Source: an uncultured Candidatus Saccharibacteria bacterium (GTDB lineage Bacteria; Patescibacteriota; Saccharimonadia; Saccharimonadales; Saccharimonadaceae). From it: a stretch of 37,251 nt of DNA. The notes under the pieces are model-generated. The model did no database searches and was not told where the DNA came from. It worked only from the letters and a program-made list of their open reading frames with translations. Numbering within the stretch: the first letter of the stretch is position 1; the number at the start of each line of letters is the position of its first letter. The position numbers and the translations under genes are program-made. Of the stretch, positions 6,163 to 36,322 are shown piece after piece. The stretch is from contig CAMJSX010000008.1 of NCBI GenBank assembly GCA_946408595.1, forward strand, positions 1-37,251, read 5' to 3'.

Positions 6163-7806
6163 ATGGTCATGCATAAAAAACGTATATTTGGGATGTCCTT
6201 AACATCCTTTTTGTTATTTCTAACTTTTCTTTCTGGTCTAGCCTTAAGTACTCCTCGAGCTATGGCAACTCCTGCACTTGCTCCTGCTACAGACATTGTA
6301 GACGTCATTAATATCAACGTTCCCGTCTCCTGTTCTATGTCCGCCACTGGTAATACCTCACATAATGCTACTGTCCAGAATGGTGCTACAGTCAGTGATA
6401 TCGGAACCACTAACATTAAAGTCATATGTAATGATAACTCAGGCTATGCTATCTATGCCATAGGCTATACTGATGATACCTATGGTAAAACAGTACTCAC
6501 TAGTTCAACTCTCGGTTCTACTCACGATATCATTACATCATCTACTGTTACTACTGGTACCTCATCCTGGGCTATGAAACTAACAGCTACATCAGGAACC
6601 TATGCTCCTACTATTGTTACTGACTATGCATCCTATCATGCAGTACCAGCAGAATATACTAAAGTAGCTTATCTTACTTCTTCTACTGATACTGGCACTA
6701 ATGCTACTGGTTCTAATCTCACTACTACCTATAGAACTTACATCTCCCAAACTCAGCCTGCAGGAACCTATGTAGGACAAGTGAAATATACTTTAGTCCA
6801 TCCACATACTGCCCTTGCTCCAGTAGTCTGCCATCCAGAAGGTACTACCATTGCTACTATTTCTTGTATGCAAGATGTCAGTTCATCTAACGTAACTACT
6901 ATTCTAGCCTCCATGACTGAAGGTCAACAATACACCTTAGCAGATTCTCGTGATAGTAAAGAATACAAAGTTGCAAAACTAAGAGACGGTAACCTTTGGA
7001 TGACCCAGAACCTAGACCATGACATTGTCTCTACTTCTGGCTTCTATACTAACGAAAACACTGACATTGGTTACAACACCACTACTGGCGAATATGACAC
7101 TGCTACTTGGACACCAAGCACTGCTACCTATACTTCTTCCAATCATACCTGGAACTATTCAGATTATACTCCGGAGTCCTATGATCCAGGCGACCTCTAT
7201 TGGAATGGTACAAAAAGTGACTGGAACGACTGGGAAACCTACTATAATAGCTGTAACTGGAATGGTTCCACGCCAGTCTGTGACGAATCTCTTAACCCAA
7301 TCTCTACCTACACTTCATCCACTGGCATTCCACAATACCATCTAGGAAACTATTATAACTGGACTGCCGCACTCGCCATGAATGATAGCTCATCAGATCC
7401 TACTTCGAATTCATTAATATTCATAGAACAATCCATCTGCCCATCTGGTTGGACTCTACCAAGAGCTGGTAGCGGCGACGATACCTTCTATGCTCTATTT
7501 AATGAATATGACTTTACTAATAGTAGTTACATAGACACAGACAATGATAACGCATATGATTTAGGCGAGGATGCTTTATGGACTAGCCCAATCTACTTCA
7601 CTGCTAGCGGTGGCTACGATGGTAGTGCGCTAATAGTCGGGTTTGAAGGTGGACTCTGGCCCACAGTTACCAGCGATTCACTTAGCGCAGCAAGCGTGTA
7701 CTTCTCCGTGGATGGTGAAAGCATCTCATCACTCTGGGGTACCGATCGTGGTTCCGGCGAACCTGTACGTTGTGTAGCTCGTCCGGTATCAGCTGATTAT
7801 TTGTAG
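6163..7806 (+). CDS. Secreted FISUMP-domain surface protein
   Basis: This 547-residue exported protein has a basic N terminus, a hydrophobic core at about residues 11-28 and a likely cleavage site near ARAMA-TP. Residues about 45-220 form a Thr/Ser-rich beta module. It runs from a VSCSM segment through VICNDNSGYAIYAIGY and a SSWAMKL segment, and ends in QPAGTYVGQVKYTLVHP. The same module occurs in the protein at 21625. Residues about 260-547 fit the FISUMP domain: EYKVAKLRDGNLWMTQNLD, YHLGNYYNWTAA, CPSGWTLPRAG and a terminal VRCVA. FISUMP proteins are extracellular and of unclear function, with a lectin-like fold suspected. The body uses ACT/GCT/TAT-type codons, while the last 200 bp look different in composition. 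An alternative ATG lies at 6169. Confidence 0.82.
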   Translation: MVMHKKRIFGMSLTSFLLFLTFLSGLALSTPRAMATPALAPATDIVDVININVPVSCSMSATGNTSHNATVQNGATVSDIGTTNIKVICNDNSGYAIYAIGYTDDTYGKTVLTSSTLGSTHDIITSSTVTTGTSSWAMKLTATSGTYAPTIVTDYASYHAVPAEYTKVAYLTSSTDTGTNATGSNLTTTYRTYISQTQPAGTYVGQVKYTLVHPHTALAPVVCHPEGTTIATISCMQDVSSSNVTTILASMTEGQQYTLADSRDSKEYKVAKLRDGNLWMTQNLDHDIVSTSGFYTNENTDIGYNTTTGEYDTATWTPSTATYTSSNHTWNYSDYTPESYDPGDLYWNGTKSDWNDWETYYNSCNWNGSTPVCDESLNPISTYTSSTGIPQYHLGNYYNWTAALAMNDSSSDPTSNSLIFIEQSICPSGWTLPRAGSGDDTFYALFNEYDFTNSSYIDTDNDNAYDLGEDALWTSPIYFTASGGYDGSALIVGFEGGLWPTVTSDSLSAASVYFSVDGESISSLWGTDRGSGEPVRCVARPVSADYL

Positions 7807-21624: not shown

Positions 21625-23565
21625 ATGAGGGTTAATATACGTTTATCTATAGTATTAAGTTTAATGGGTTTTTCTGTTTTATCTTTTCTTCTTTTATCCT
21701 CTTCTGTCTTAGCAGATAGTGCAGTTACTACTACCACCATTAGTATTGCAGAATCCTGTACCATGTCCGGTACTACTAACACTGCCCATACAGCAGATTT
21801 AGTCAACGGTACCTACTCCGGCACCAACTATCCCACTGGTATTGGCCAAACCACCCTCAAAGTCTTCTGTAATGATAATAATGGCTTTGCTATATATGCT
21901 ATAGGCTATACTAATGACGAGTATGGTAATAATAAACTCCACTGGAGCGGAGCAACTAGCACTAGCGACACTACTAATGACATTAATACTGGCATTTATT
22001 CATCCGGAGCCACTACTTCTTCTTGGTCTATGAAACTAGCAGCTATGTCAGGTACTTATGCTGCTACCATTGATGATGGAGTATCAGCTAATAATAACAG
22101 TACTGATAACTTTACTAACTGGCACATAGTACCTACCGAATATAAACGTGTAGCATATAGAACATCCGGTACTGACTTAAATACTAATAATAATGGTACT
22201 GGCTCTTCTATTACTACTACTTATGATGCCTATGTCTCCGCTACTCAACCTGCTGGTACATATACTGGACAAGTGAAATACACATTAGTTCATCCAAATA
22301 AGAGTGATCAGTCTAATAAGCCAGTAAGACCACTAAGAACTGGTGAATGCCCAAATAATTACATTTGTTATGCTCCAAACGCTGATGATGTAGAAGGAGA
22401 TATGAGTTCACTAGGTTATACCGAGGCTCTTCATGCCGCTTCACCAAAAGCGGGCAGACAATCTGCCTCCGCTAACCCTACTGTCACCCTTCGTGCCCCC
22501 AACTTCAAACGTGAAGGCTACGGCTTTGCTGGCTGGAGTACTGCTTATGACGCTACTACTGCTACTAATCCAGTTATTTATGGTCCAAATGAAACCATCT
22601 CCACTAATCCACAAGATGCCCGTGGTCTAGATGTCTCAGGCGGTGCAGTTCTATACCCAGTCTGGATTGCTAAAGAAACTAATGTTACTATGCAAACCTT
22701 TAACTCTACTAATTATTCAGCCTACACTTCAGCTCCAAATGGTACCGTAATTGCACTAGAAGACGAACGAGACCATGATGTCTACGCTGTAGCGAAATTA
22801 GCTGATGGTAACTGGTGGATGATAGAAAACTTAAGACTTGATGATTCCGCTACTCTCACCACAACAAATACTCATAACCCACTACATGATACAAACAATA
22901 TTGTTACATTAAAGACGGATTATGCTAATAATACTATAGAAAACCATCTAGCCGCTTCAAATAATACTTGGTGTGATAACTATAGCGCCGATTGCTATGA
23001 CCAAACTATGCTAAATACCAATAATACTAGATTATCAGACTCTAGCCTCACTGCAAGCTATAGTGCCAATAACGCCACTTCTAAATGGTATAGTTATGGT
23101 AACTACTACAACTGGTATTCTGCTACAGCTGGTAATGGTACTTATAGCTTTAATACCAACAATAATTCAGTTAATGGTGATCTTTGCCCAGCTGGTTGGC
23201 ATTTACCAAAAGGTGGTGATAAGAACAATACAGCAAATAGTGAATTCTGGGCTCTTGGTGTAGCTATTGTAGGTACAGAACCAGCTAACACTTCAGACCA
23301 AACCCGGCCATATTATACAGGAACCCCAGAAGGCACTAATGCTTCTAACGCCATAAGAGCCTATCCAAACAACTTTGTTTACTCCGGGTACTGGGATAGT
23401 GCCCAGGCGTGCAATCGTAGCAGCAACGGCATCTATTGGTCATCGTCCGCTAACAATAGTAGCGTCGCCCACAGCCTGCTCTTAGACAGTAGCAACGTCT
23501 ACCCCGGGGCGAATAGCTACTACAAGTACACCGGGTACTCAGTCCGCTGCGTAGCTGGTTCTTAG
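21625..23565 (+). CDS. Secreted protein: WxL-like module, InlB-type repeat and FISUMP domain
   Basis: This 646-residue exported protein starts with a basic residue-poor signal peptide with a hydrophobic core (about 6-28, cut near VLADS). Residues about 30-235 are the beta module also seen at 6163: AESCTMSGT, VFCNDNNGFAIYAIGYT, WSMKLAAMSGTYAA and QPAGTYTGQVKYTLVHP. An InlB B-repeat-like segment follows (FKREGYGFAGWSTAYD ... LYPVWI, about 290-350). Then comes the FISUMP domain: VYAVAKLADGNWWMIENL, YGNYYNWYSAT, CPAGWHLPKGG and the terminal IYWSSS ... YSVRCVAGS. The last 170 bp switch from T/A-ending codons to codons ending in C, which resembles a hypervariable lectin tail. It sits between ruvC and ruvA, suggesting insertion. 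Confidence 0.83.
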   Translation: MRVNIRLSIVLSLMGFSVLSFLLLSSSVLADSAVTTTTISIAESCTMSGTTNTAHTADLVNGTYSGTNYPTGIGQTTLKVFCNDNNGFAIYAIGYTNDEYGNNKLHWSGATSTSDTTNDINTGIYSSGATTSSWSMKLAAMSGTYAATIDDGVSANNNSTDNFTNWHIVPTEYKRVAYRTSGTDLNTNNNGTGSSITTTYDAYVSATQPAGTYTGQVKYTLVHPNKSDQSNKPVRPLRTGECPNNYICYAPNADDVEGDMSSLGYTEALHAASPKAGRQSASANPTVTLRAPNFKREGYGFAGWSTAYDATTATNPVIYGPNETISTNPQDARGLDVSGGAVLYPVWIAKETNVTMQTFNSTNYSAYTSAPNGTVIALEDERDHDVYAVAKLADGNWWMIENLRLDDSATLTTTNTHNPLHDTNNIVTLKTDYANNTIENHLAASNNTWCDNYSADCYDQTMLNTNNTRLSDSSLTASYSANNATSKWYSYGNYYNWYSATAGNGTYSFNTNNNSVNGDLCPAGWHLPKGGDKNNTANSEFWALGVAIVGTEPANTSDQTRPYYTGTPEGTNASNAIRAYPNNFVYSGYWDSAQACNRSSNGIYWSSSANNSSVAHSLLLDSSNVYPGANSYYKYTGYSVRCVAGS

Positions 23566-33185: not shown

Positions 33186-33911
33186 ATGAAATTAAAGCAC
33201 AGGAGGTTAATTACGGTAATTGCGGCGTTTGTTGGCGTCATAATCTGGCTAGTGACAAATCCCGAGAGCTATGAAACCATCTTTGTGCGAGCCGAAAATG
33301 ACGGGGAAGATTATTCGGCCATCCCCTCGACAGAATACGATCCAAATGCCAAGCTAGCAATTGATGTGCTAGCAGAATTAGAAGTCAAAGGCCGCGCCCC
33401 AAAGACAGGCTATTCACGCGAAGCCTTTTATGATGGCTGGCCAACGGTTAACGGGTGCTCATTAAGGCAGCGCATTATTAAACGAGAATTTGGCGAAACC
33501 GCAATATTAAACGGGTGTGACGTGGTAGCAGGAGAATATGATGATCCCTATACCGGCGAACACAAAGTTTTCGCAAGTCGCGAAGAGATTGCAAACGGCG
33601 TCCAGATCGACCATGTGGTAGCCTTGTCAGATGCCTGGCAAAAAGGTGCACAATATCTTTCGGCAGAAATACGTGGACAAATTGCGACTGACCCATTAAA
33701 CTTATTAGCAGTAGACGCCACGGCCAATATCAAAAAATCCGATGGCGATGCGGCGACTTGGTTGCCGTCAAATAAGAAATTTCGTTGCCAATATGTAGCC
33801 AGACAAATATCGGTCAAGTTTAAATACAAACTTTGGTTAAGCAAAGCTGAAAAAGAAGCCATGGAGCGCGTTTTAAGCAACTGCCCAAAAGAGCCAACGG
33901 TCGGCATTTAA
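33186..33911 (+). CDS. Secreted HNH-family nuclease (DUF1524-like)
   Basis: This 241-residue protein has an N-terminal signal or anchor (about 7-25), an acidic spacer and then a nuclease domain. Key features are a WPTVNGCSLRQ segment, the catalytic QIDHVVALSDAWQKGA (His of the beta-beta-alpha metal site), DPLNLLAVDATANIKKSD, WLPSNKKFRCQYVARQ, and a closing Cys (SNCPKE). These match exported HNH nucleases of the DUF1524 type that degrade DNA. An outside nuclease would fit scavenging of nucleotides, since these bacteria lack de novo synthesis. TATAAT (33174-33179) lies exactly 6 nt before the ATG, so the mRNA is predicted leaderless. Confidence 0.87.
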   Translation: MKLKHRRLITVIAAFVGVIIWLVTNPESYETIFVRAENDGEDYSAIPSTEYDPNAKLAIDVLAELEVKGRAPKTGYSREAFYDGWPTVNGCSLRQRIIKREFGETAILNGCDVVAGEYDDPYTGEHKVFASREEIANGVQIDHVVALSDAWQKGAQYLSAEIRGQIATDPLNLLAVDATANIKKSDGDAATWLPSNKKFRCQYVARQISVKFKYKLWLSKAEKEAMERVLSNCPKEPTVGI

Positions 33912-33956: not shown

Positions 33957-33985
33957 TTGACAATTGCAAAACGGTTATGTAAAAT
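33957..33985 (+). promoter_or_regulatory. Strong promoter of the WxL/pilin-like gene
   Basis: TTGACA (33957-33962), a 17-nt spacer and TAAAAT (33980-33985) precede a 5' UTR of about 65 nt. It has a consensus -35 and is one of the few conventional leadered promoters in the window. Confidence 0.82.
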
Positions 33986-34029
33986 GAGAAATGTTAAAGG
34001 TCTATACATTTAACACATAAATAATAATT

Positions 34030-34050
34030 TTCCACACAGTGTGGAAGGAG
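34030..34050 (+). promoter_or_regulatory. 5' UTR hairpin touching the Shine-Dalgarno
   Basis: TTCCACAC (34030-34037), A, GTGTGGAA (34039-34046) is a perfect inverted repeat. Its right arm runs into GGAAGGAG (34043-34050), the Shine-Dalgarno of the gene at 34058, so pairing could hide half of it or protect the 5' end. Confidence 0.65.
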
Positions 34051-34057
34051 AAAAAAT

Positions 34058-34603
34058 ATGAAAAAATTAGCAATTGTAGGTGCAAGCGCAGCCTTGGCAG
34101 CATTGCCAGTACTCGGCGTTTTCGCTGCTACGACAACTATCGTAGATAACATCTCTGTTGGTGTTGCAGAATCTTGCCAAATTGGATCTGACGCTTCCGG
34201 AGCAACATCGGTATCCCGTAGCTTTTCGGCAACGAACCAACAGCCAGGTACATTAGTAACCTTCACCGATGCGTCTGAAGCTACCCAAGTAGCAGTCAAA
34301 TGTAACATTGCCGCTGGTTACACTTTAACCCCAACTTTCACTGCTCTTACCAGCGGTTCCAACTCAATTGCCTATGACGGCACAGCAGTGGCTGCTGCAG
34401 GTGATGGTGAATGGAGCGCATCTTATGTGCTTACTCACGAAGGAACGGCAGGTTCTTCTACGCTTATGACGAGTGGAACTGTCATCAATGGTACATCAAC
34501 CATGACAGATGTTTATAACTTTACTTATAACATTGGTCTAGACGAGGACCAACCAACTGGTACTTACACTGGTACTGCAACCTATCTTTTGGCTGGTAAA
34601 TAA
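34058..34603 (+). CDS. Small exported WxL/pilin-like beta protein
   Basis: This 181-residue protein has a signal peptide (basic start, hydrophobic to about residue 22, cut near VFA-ATT). The mature part is a Thr/Ser/Ala-rich beta protein with GVAESCQIG, AVKCNIAAGYTLTP, DGEWSASYVLTHEG and a closing DQPTGTYTGTATYLLAGK. The same order of motifs (ESC, then CN-x-GY, then a Trp segment, then QPxGTYxG-x-x-Y-x-L) is found in the proteins at 6163 and 21625. The ending resembles the GxYxGxxxWxL end of WxL cell-wall domains, with Tyr in place of Trp. Spore-coat-U-like or pilin folds are alternatives. A consensus promoter, a long leader, a good Shine-Dalgarno and its own terminator predict high expression. 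DUF916-like protein follows two genes later. Confidence 0.72.
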   Translation: MKKLAIVGASAALAALPVLGVFAATTTIVDNISVGVAESCQIGSDASGATSVSRSFSATNQQPGTLVTFTDASEATQVAVKCNIAAGYTLTPTFTALTSGSNSIAYDGTAVAAAGDGEWSASYVLTHEGTAGSSTLMTSGTVINGTSTMTDVYNFTYNIGLDEDQPTGTYTGTATYLLAGK

Positions 34604-34624
34604 TCGTTGATACCTAACAATTGA

Positions 34625-34651
34625 GAAAATCCCGGGTAGGCCGGGATTTTC
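34625..34651 (+). terminator. Intrinsic terminator after the WxL/pilin-like gene
   Basis: GAAAATCCCGG (34625-34635) pairs with CCGGGATTTTC (34641-34651) around a 5-nt loop. The T4 run is within the stem, so the terminator is strong in structure but has a short tail. It may be partial, letting some transcription enter the next two genes. Confidence 0.8.
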
Positions 34652-34676
34652 TTATCAAGAACTTATGAGGGATAAT

Positions 34677-35240
34677 ATGAATAATAATCAAGAAAAAAAA
34701 GACCGACCATACTCCAGGCTAATAAAAATAGGTATTGTTTTAGTTATAGTCGCGATTATGATCGTAGTATTATCTCAAATGATAGGAAAAACCATAATCA
34801 CCAAAAAAGAAGGTGGAAAAAAAGAAATGCATTCCATAGCCTGCGTAGCAGAAAACCTATCGTATCCGTTTTTTACCTATGACAATTCAGAAAAAACGGA
34901 ATTAAAAATTAATGCAACTTTTGAAGATGATGCACTGAGCTCAATTTCGCTAGTATATATTCTAACCTATAAAGATAAAGATGGGGCAATAGCGAGTGAA
35001 TTAAAAAATCATATTGATTTCGAAGTAATGATTCAGAAAGAAGGTTTAAGAAACACGACTCTACATTCTGATCATAAAGTGCTAGATAATCTGTATCAGT
35101 TGACAATTTACAATTCAAGAAATGAATTAAATGAGACAATAGCAAAATACTATTTACTTGATTCACTACAGGGTGATTATACGCAAATAGATGTAGGGGA
35201 TGCGCTTACTAAAAACGGATTTAATTGTATTAATAGATAA
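34677..35240 (+). CDS. Single-span membrane protein in the WxL-like locus
   Basis: This 187-residue protein of no recognised family has a basic, Asn/Lys-rich start, one membrane helix (about 19-41) and an extracytoplasmic part of about 145 residues with two Cys (ACVAENL near 60, NGFNCINR at the end). GAGGG (34667-34671) lies 5 nt before the ATG at 34677, which is preferred over the in-frame ATG at 34665. The next gene begins 16 nt after the stop, so the two form an operon. The place between the WxL-like and DUF916-like genes suggests a role in anchoring or assembly, but this is inference. Confidence 0.7.
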   Translation: MNNNQEKKDRPYSRLIKIGIVLVIVAIMIVVLSQMIGKTIITKKEGGKKEMHSIACVAENLSYPFFTYDNSEKTELKINATFEDDALSSISLVYILTYKDKDGAIASELKNHIDFEVMIQKEGLRNTTLHSDHKVLDNLYQLTIYNSRNELNETIAKYYLLDSLQGDYTQIDVGDALTKNGFNCINR

Positions 35241-35256
35241 TAACGAGGAGGTATAA

Positions 35257-36207
35257 ATGAAAAAATCAAAAATACAATACTTTATTAGCGGAGCGGTGGC
35301 TACCATCCTTGTGACGCTCATTAGTGTACTGAATGTCAAAATGGCCAACGCAGCTTCTTTCGTAGTATCACCTCTAAACAATTACGTAATTATAAACCCC
35401 GGCGATTCCTATGAGTCTTCATTTAAGGTATTGAACCCTTTTGGTAGCGAAAATGATATAAAATATGAAGTTAAAATGGAGCATTTTTACGAAGGCGATG
35501 ATGGAGCCGTCTTATTAGAAGAAGTAGGGGATACTGGACAGATTCTAAAATGGGTTACCTTGAAATCCGAAGATACTGGTACCCTAGCACCAAATGAATC
35601 TGCGGAAATAAGATATGTAATAAATGTACCAAAAGATGCCGCTGGCGGTGGGCAATATGTTGCATTTGCAGTAGAGGCAAAGAATTATGACGAGACTGAT
35701 GATTCTGGCGAAGGGACCAGCACTACTTTGGAACAAAGGATGGTAATTGCGTATCGAGTGTTTGTGGAAGTAACTGGTGAAGTAACCCGAAGCGGAGAGA
35801 TACTAAACGTTGACGTCCCCGGGTTCTTATTAAGTGGGAATATATTTGGCTCCTCAATTATTAAAAACACTGGGAATGTACATGGTATAGCATCTTATAA
35901 ATTACAAGTCTTTCCATTATTCAGTGATGAAGAACTATATACTAATGAAGAGAACCCCACTACAAGAACAATTATGCCAGATAGGTCTATGTATCACGAT
36001 CTCGCTTGGGAAAAGACGCCTAGCATAGGGATATTTAACGTAGTCTATACAGTAGAGTTTGAAGGCGTAACTGCACAGGTGAAGAAAATGGTAATCAAAT
36101 GCCCAATCTGGCTACTATTCATTATTATCTTCGCGATCGTGGCAGCGATTATCTACTTTGTTTCGCGCGCCAGAGCCAGAAGAGCCGAACGCCGCTCCGC
36201 AGAATAA
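35257..36207 (+). CDS. DUF916/WxL-interacting-like exported membrane protein
   Basis: This 316-residue protein has a signal peptide (about 1-32, cut near ANA-ASF) and two Ig-like beta domains. FVVSPLNNYVIINPGDSYESSFKVLNPFG, LAPNESAEIRYVINVPKDAAGGGQY and RMVIAYRVFVEV follow the layout of DUF916/WxL-interacting proteins. A second part (GSSIIKNTGNVHGIASYKLQVFP) leads to a C-terminal transmembrane helix (about 284-305) and an Arg-rich cytoplasmic tail (RARARRAERR). In Firmicutes such proteins bind WxL-domain proteins and peptidoglycan and are encoded in WxL clusters. GAGGAGG lies 5 nt before the ATG. The relationship is remote and needs profile comparison. Confidence 0.68.
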   Translation: MKKSKIQYFISGAVATILVTLISVLNVKMANAASFVVSPLNNYVIINPGDSYESSFKVLNPFGSENDIKYEVKMEHFYEGDDGAVLLEEVGDTGQILKWVTLKSEDTGTLAPNESAEIRYVINVPKDAAGGGQYVAFAVEAKNYDETDDSGEGTSTTLEQRMVIAYRVFVEVTGEVTRSGEILNVDVPGFLLSGNIFGSSIIKNTGNVHGIASYKLQVFPLFSDEELYTNEENPTTRTIMPDRSMYHDLAWEKTPSIGIFNVVYTVEFEGVTAQVKKMVIKCPIWLLFIIIFAIVAAIIYFVSRARARRAERRSAE

Positions 36208-36293: not shown

Positions 36294-36322
36294 TTGACTT
36301 GTTTGATTTTGTTTGATATAAT
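36294..36322 (+). promoter_or_regulatory. Dedicated 23S rRNA promoter
   Basis: TTGACT (36294-36299), a 17-nt spacer and TATAAT (36317-36322) lie about 190 nt before the 23S start. A GGGG follows the -10. It has strong near-consensus elements and lies directly after a terminator. Confidence 0.88.

Follow-up and report, generated by a model that had tools for sequence, protein, structure and literature searches.

A cassette in Saccharibacteria pairing a Pam-type pilin-like protein with a WxLIP-like membrane protein, and the same pairing across Patescibacteria

Pam-type pilins are paired with WxLIP-like membrane proteins across the phylum Patescibacteria, a new element that we describe from a three-gene cassette in a 37,251-nucleotide stretch of DNA (the window) from an uncultured Saccharibacteria bacterium. 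With a probability of about 0.7, a membrane-anchored, WxLIP-like partner with a chaperone fold holds or assembles Pam-type subunits on the surface of this monoderm epibiont, the whole probably being a fibre-forming display cassette. The genome of the window comprises 738 kb, and its closest named relatives are Saccharibacteria MAGs from the ruminant gut. An earlier note, made from the sequence alone, had suggested a divergent WxL-type surface display system at this place; the idea of a display system proved largely right, given that the partner is WxLIP-like and that the two families both co-occur and adjoin.

The cassette consists of three open reading frames on the forward strand, all of which were found where the earlier note had placed them and are named here by their first coordinates. 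The first (34058 to 34603) encodes a small, exported, single-domain Pam-type pilin-like protein of 181 aa, the second (34665 to 35240; a 191-aa ORF) encodes a single-span, N-in membrane protein with an outside domain, and the third (35257 to 36207) encodes the WxLIP-like protein of 316 aa. All three products are exported or membrane anchored by their sequence signals. The 34665 protein has one hydrophobic span close to its N terminus and two invariant Cys residues, and its probable start is the better-spaced ATG at 34680. The same order of small exported, single-span, and WxLIP-like proteins, with a 34665-type gene in the middle, recurs in no fewer than seven other complete cassettes of the genus, among which is a divergently arranged pair on a single contig of genome G062. 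Of 150 family genomes, 100 encode relatives of 35257, often more than one, and a ten-sequence profile detected the 34058-type domain in 73 of 80 genus genomes, with 15 occurrences in the genome of the window. Since gene order, promoter and leader type, and a terminator-like hairpin all recur in relatives, the features of the cassette are not products of chance, and its genes are both genuine and conserved.

The 34058 protein carries a signal peptide (MKKLAIVGASAALAALPVLGVFA), the motifs CNxxxG[YW]xL and GxYxGxxxY, and the C-terminal end ...QPTGTYTGTATYLLAGK. Cys40 and Cys82 are invariant within the cassette group and are gained or lost together among 27 relatives (11 have both, 14 have neither, and 2 have one); other conserved positions are [YW]88, W119, and Tyr/Phe at 170 and 176. 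Alone, the protein of the window scores 19.5 bits against the NCBIfam model NF058581 (CPR_Pam_pilin_C), below the cut-off of 55, and the model is matched by 9 of the 27 relatives. When the whole family was compared with Pam pilins profile to profile, the probability was 96.8% (E = 2.2e-10), and the eight closest relatives alone still gave 86% (E = 5e-6). The same type of comparison with 16 real WxL domains, taken from plasmid-encoded proteins, yielded no significant match, with 19 C-terminal columns aligned at 0.7%, and Pfam WxL was matched by a single one of the 27 relatives (E = 0.004). On this comparison, 34058 is not detectably a WxL domain. The Trp-x-Leu motifs that mark a WxL domain at two places are replaced by Y88-x-L and Y176-x-L. 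The idea of Tyr standing in for Trp holds in part at the first motif, where position 88 is W in 7 and Y in 19 of the 27 relatives, and fails at the second, where the residue is Y in 23, F in 4, and W in none. By its sequence profile, 34058 belongs with the Pam pilus pilins of Patescibacteria, at the level of the family and below the NCBI cut-off. A direct sequence search of the PDB with 34058 returned no matches, and a consensus WxL query, used as bait only, retrieved nothing from the PDB except spurious RecA matches. The AlphaFold model of 34058 has a pLDDT of 80.7; in fold searches its top matches were chaperone-usher pilins, weakly so, with no E below 0.001 and TM-scores of about 0.3 to 0.45.

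The 35257 protein has a signal peptide, two Ig-like domains, a C-terminal membrane helix (residues 284 to 315), and an Arg-rich tail (RARARRAERRSAE). Scanned as a single sequence against Pfam and NCBIfam, 35257 matched neither a WxLIP model nor any informative family, and therefore family alignments were needed. Pfam WxLIP_PGBD was matched by 25 of 44 members of the family, with fn3_5 and NPCBM_assoc matching about as many. When the family profile was run against 177,635 PDB sequences, EfmWxLIP1 (9i25 and 9i1y) ranked first (E = 3.4e-4). Compared profile to profile, the family matched ten real plasmid-encoded DUF916-DUF3324 proteins at 98.4%; after trimming of the signal peptide and the transmembrane helix, the match to WxLIPs was 95.8% (E = 7.8e-9) over 232 columns covering both Ig-like domains, with reversed controls at 0.1 to 0.2%. 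Consistent with the sequence profile, a Foldseek search with the AlphaFold model (pLDDT, 91.8) placed the Enterococcus faecium WxLIP 9i1y at the top (E = 3.5e-11), followed by the chaperones CfaA, CsuC, and PapD; TM-scores against WxLIP were 0.4 to 0.5. Sequence profile and predicted fold thus agree on the DUF916-like character that the earlier note had proposed, and we regard 35257 as a distant homologue of the WxLIPs (DUF916-DUF3324). In the first domain of WxLIPs, an NQIDKxxxYFDLK segment is conserved (PMC10599100). This segment is absent from the 35257 family, where the Firmicutes stretch falls in an alignment gap, and for this reason the protein is called WxLIP-like and is not filed as a WxLIP. 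Its gene neighbours, moreover, are Pam-type, with no detectable WxL protein among them. Because 34058 falls short of the Pam cut-off and 35257 alone lacks a WxLIP match, both assignments rest on family profiles.

We then turn from the window to the phylum. In a sample of 240 phylum genomes, the genomes behind the Pam and WxLIP-like counts being taken as identical on the strength of their matching labels, NF058581 matches were present in 62 genomes and the WxLIP-like family in 109. The WxLIP-like family was found in 60 of the 62 genomes with a Pam pilin and in 49 of the 178 others (P = 1e-23), and in the Pam loci fetched from across the phylum, pilin and WxLIP-like genes alternate. At the level of single genes, counted in loci that had been gathered by WxLIP-type searches, 41 of 73 WxLIP-like genes had a Pam-profile match within two genes, compared with 59 of 750 other genes (P = 2e-22). 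Furthermore, the partners in Pam loci resemble WxLIPs in their own right: 21 of 28 matched WxLIP_PGBD (best E = 1.7e-8), and the partners of canonical Pam pilins aligned with WxLIPs, profile to profile, at 97.5% (E = 8.2e-12). The two families are thus neighbours and co-occur far beyond chance, so that for the DUF916 half of the proposal both the predicted structure and the co-occurrence came out in its favour. The earlier note's word undescribed is wrong in part, as NCBI already holds a model of the Pam pilin; its WxLIP-like partner is not recognised by NCBIfam, and our literature search found no open paper on the Pam pilus or on a WxL system in Patescibacteria.

These data can be read in other ways. 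The cassette could be a true, if divergent, WxL system, with 34058 binding peptidoglycan noncovalently by way of Tyr in place of Trp and 35257 acting as its WxLIP, which would produce a wall-bound coat of monomers and no fibre. The WxLIP-like partner would suit such a system, as would aromatic motifs at both expected places, the first of them with W in some relatives, and a domain common to small and large proteins, as in WxL clusters. The one relative that matches Pfam WxL does so over positions 99 to 211 (E = 0.001 to 0.004), and alignment of either profile, Pam or 34058, to WxL is confined to the C-terminal motif. Nonetheless, we consider this reading unlikely: the family profile sides with Pam pilins and not with the 16 WxL domains, W is absent from the second motif in all relatives, and the large proteins carry the domain at the N terminus, not at the C terminus.

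Less probable still is a role of 35257 mainly as a surface anchor or receptor-binding arm, with no chaperone function, beside an independent secreted matrix protein, 34058, that would be a mere gene neighbour. Although the C-terminal helix tethers 35257 to the cell, 32 of the 73 WxLIP-like genes lack a Pam-profile match within two genes, and one WxLIP-like gene of the window's genome (L087) lies among housekeeping genes with no pilin neighbour, this account sits poorly with a 15-fold enrichment of the neighbourhood (odds ratio), with the co-occurrence across genomes, and with a two-domain fold like that of dedicated pilin chaperones. Finally, there is very little room for a chance or generic resemblance, whereby many exported beta proteins would end in GxYxxxxxY and Ig folds would match one another. 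Ig-like folds do match widely, as the frequency of fn3_5 and NPCBM_assoc hits illustrates, but the two-domain profiles align over their full length, WxLIP comes first in both sequence and fold searches, synteny is conserved, and the clean reversed and shuffled controls have already largely refuted this explanation.

The preferred reading, a display cassette of Pam-type subunits and a membrane-anchored WxLIP-like partner, also draws on expression signals. Upstream of the pilin gene lies a sigma-70-type promoter, TTGACA-N17-TAAAAT (33957 to 33985, forward strand), with 11 of 12 consensus positions, and promoters of the same type precede the pilin gene in relatives. At about 65 nt, the leader is not especially long. 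It contains two stem-loops on the forward strand. Stem-loop 1 (33992 to 34015; TGTTAAA-GGTCTATACA-TTTAACA) folds and is conserved in genus leaders, across which GTTAAAGGTYAT...TTTAACA is kept (leaders of loci L091, L090, L095, L096, L107, and L219 to L243). Stem-loop 2 (34029 to 34047) abuts and overlaps the Shine-Dalgarno sequence AAGGAG; at its place, a stem of at least 5 bp was present in 38 of 61 relatives' leaders versus 10% of shuffles, and 29 distinct stem sequences were seen in all, such that sequence varies while complementarity is kept. The stems were counted per sequence, the variable loops not being alignable with MAFFT. The conserved 5' leader with its two hairpins (33992 to 34050) is a candidate new RNA element. 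An intrinsic-terminator-like hairpin (34622 to 34654, forward strand; -22.1 kcal/mol, z = -5.1) follows the pilin gene, ahead of 34665. In 54 of 60 relatives, the 70 nt downstream of the pilin gene have strong structure (z below -2), a count based on mononucleotide shuffles of sequences that are related and hence not independent. Of the signals that the earlier note had named, the strong promoter and separate terminator stood, and the long leader did not. The conserved promoter, leader hairpins, and terminator after the pilin gene thus imply an excess of pilin; strong promotion and a conserved terminator fit a surplus subunit, and many subunits may be made per partner.

How might such a cassette work? 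In our model, 34058 would be an abundant secreted single-domain subunit of Pam type, and the outside part of 35257 a chaperone-like arm of two Ig domains that catches subunits as they leave the Sec channel. 35257 would then hold or assemble 34058 at the cell surface, most likely through a strand that completes the beta sandwich of the subunit, and 34665 would act as a genus-specific membrane accessory factor. For Firmicutes, an AlphaFold-based proposal has WxL receiving a strand from a beta-hairpin in the first domain of WxLIP (PMC10599100). More speculatively, the N-terminal segment of the mature 34058 subunit, with its VDxLxLTV-type alternation before Cys40, might serve as a donor strand. 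Contact between 34058 and 35257, strand complementation, polymerisation into a pilus, and attachment to host bacteria are thus all predicted steps. No usher or other assembly machine was noticed near the cassette, and we found no experimental evidence for filaments from the genus.

Compared with known systems, the cassette is nearest to the Pam pilus loci, whose pilins share with 34058 a homologous domain by profile, the C-terminal GxYxxxxxY ending, and an adjoining WxLIP-like gene; however, many canonical Pam pilins have a length of about 350 aa, whereas 34058 is one small domain scoring below the cut-off, and the window has an extra, genus-specific middle gene. Firmicutes WxLIPs (EfmWxLIP1, 9i1y/9i25; PMC10599100) have in common with 35257 the signal peptide, two Ig-like domains, C-terminal helix, and an adjoining gene for a small exported beta protein, in addition to the profile and fold matches, but 35257 shows about 10% identity, lacks the conserved first-domain segment, and has a Pam-type partner. 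WxL proteins (PF13731), like the 34058 type, include small single-domain and large members with aromatic motifs at two places; 34058 differs in lacking a significant profile match, in having Tyr for Trp, and in the N-terminal position of the domain in large proteins. In chaperone-usher systems, the pilins (FimA/PapE/Csu) are the best, though weak, fold matches of 34058 and the chaperones (PapD/CfaA/CsuC) are strong fold matches of 35257, which differs in being membrane anchored; no sequence relation to these systems was found.

Saccharibacteria are taken to be monoderm. A broader and more tentative idea, which we hold to be possible but somewhat doubtful, is that monoderm Patescibacteria build pili with a membrane-tethered chaperone sharing an ancestor with WxLIPs, and that a single principle, the strand-complemented subunit, takes variant forms in Pam pilins, WxL domains, and chaperone-usher pilins. 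If true, epibionts would widely share a host-attachment layer made of Pam subunits, either on their own or in fusion with large adhesins. So far, the hold of obligate epibiotic Patescibacteria on host bacteria has been explained mainly by type IV pili, and the pairing hints at a common means of adhering to hosts that has been little studied. It connects a phylum-wide pilin family, known until now by no more than a name in a database, with the WxLIPs, a Gram-positive family of solved structure. Hundreds of unannotated genes thereby gain a function that can be tested, and WxL display may be linked in evolution to pilus assembly aided by chaperones.

In the genus, the pilin domain is also the N-terminal module of large adhesin-like proteins, and in the genome of the window most of the listed 34058-type domains sit in longer proteins. 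Two are encoded on the forward strand of the window, an exported protein of 547 aa at 6163 to 7806 (A3 profile E = 5.5e-20, model positions 23 to 190) and one of 646 aa at 21625 to 23565 (E = 9.3e-16, positions 28 to 190), each with the pilin-type domain at the N terminus. We read the downstream regions of several of the longer proteins, from sequence, as FISUMP-, BspA-, or repeat-like. With the subunit domain on large adhesin-like proteins, one system could display many adhesins. Giant exported proteins of about 500 to 1390 aa, with an N-terminal Pam-type domain and C-terminal FISUMP-like domains, are encoded at L130 (4700 to 12531; G000:C4), L128, L129, and L133 and are a candidate adhesin repertoire.

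At a second WxLIP-like locus (L003, 2451 to 3329; G000:C2), the WxLIP-like gene is followed by that of a 292-aa exported protein with a sortase-signal-like end (VPDTG, a membrane span, and KGSKRK), and in L092, L098, and L134 genes for similar two-span proteins come after WxLIP-like genes. The genome of the window has two sortases; given these and the VPDTG-ending protein, other partners may be anchored covalently to the wall. The WxLIP-like gene of L087 (10315 to 11169; G000:C3) has no obvious signal peptide and no pilin gene beside it, overlaps the next gene, and is flanked by an anaerobic NTP reductase/activase-like pair on one side and by iron-sulfur (IscS/IscU-like) genes on the other.

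Directly downstream of the cassette is a 23S rRNA gene (from 36513, with the window reaching to 37251), and the cassette also precedes a 23S rRNA gene in G001, G062, and G116; loci L091, L095, and L096 show this neighbourhood. In the window, this gene has no 16S gene just upstream and has its own promoter-like site at 36294 to 36322. Just upstream of the cassette, 33186 to 33911 encodes an exported protein with a GmrSD C-terminal HNH-type nuclease domain (Pfam E = 1e-14), and proteins of similar appearance precede the cassettes in L091, L096, and L107.
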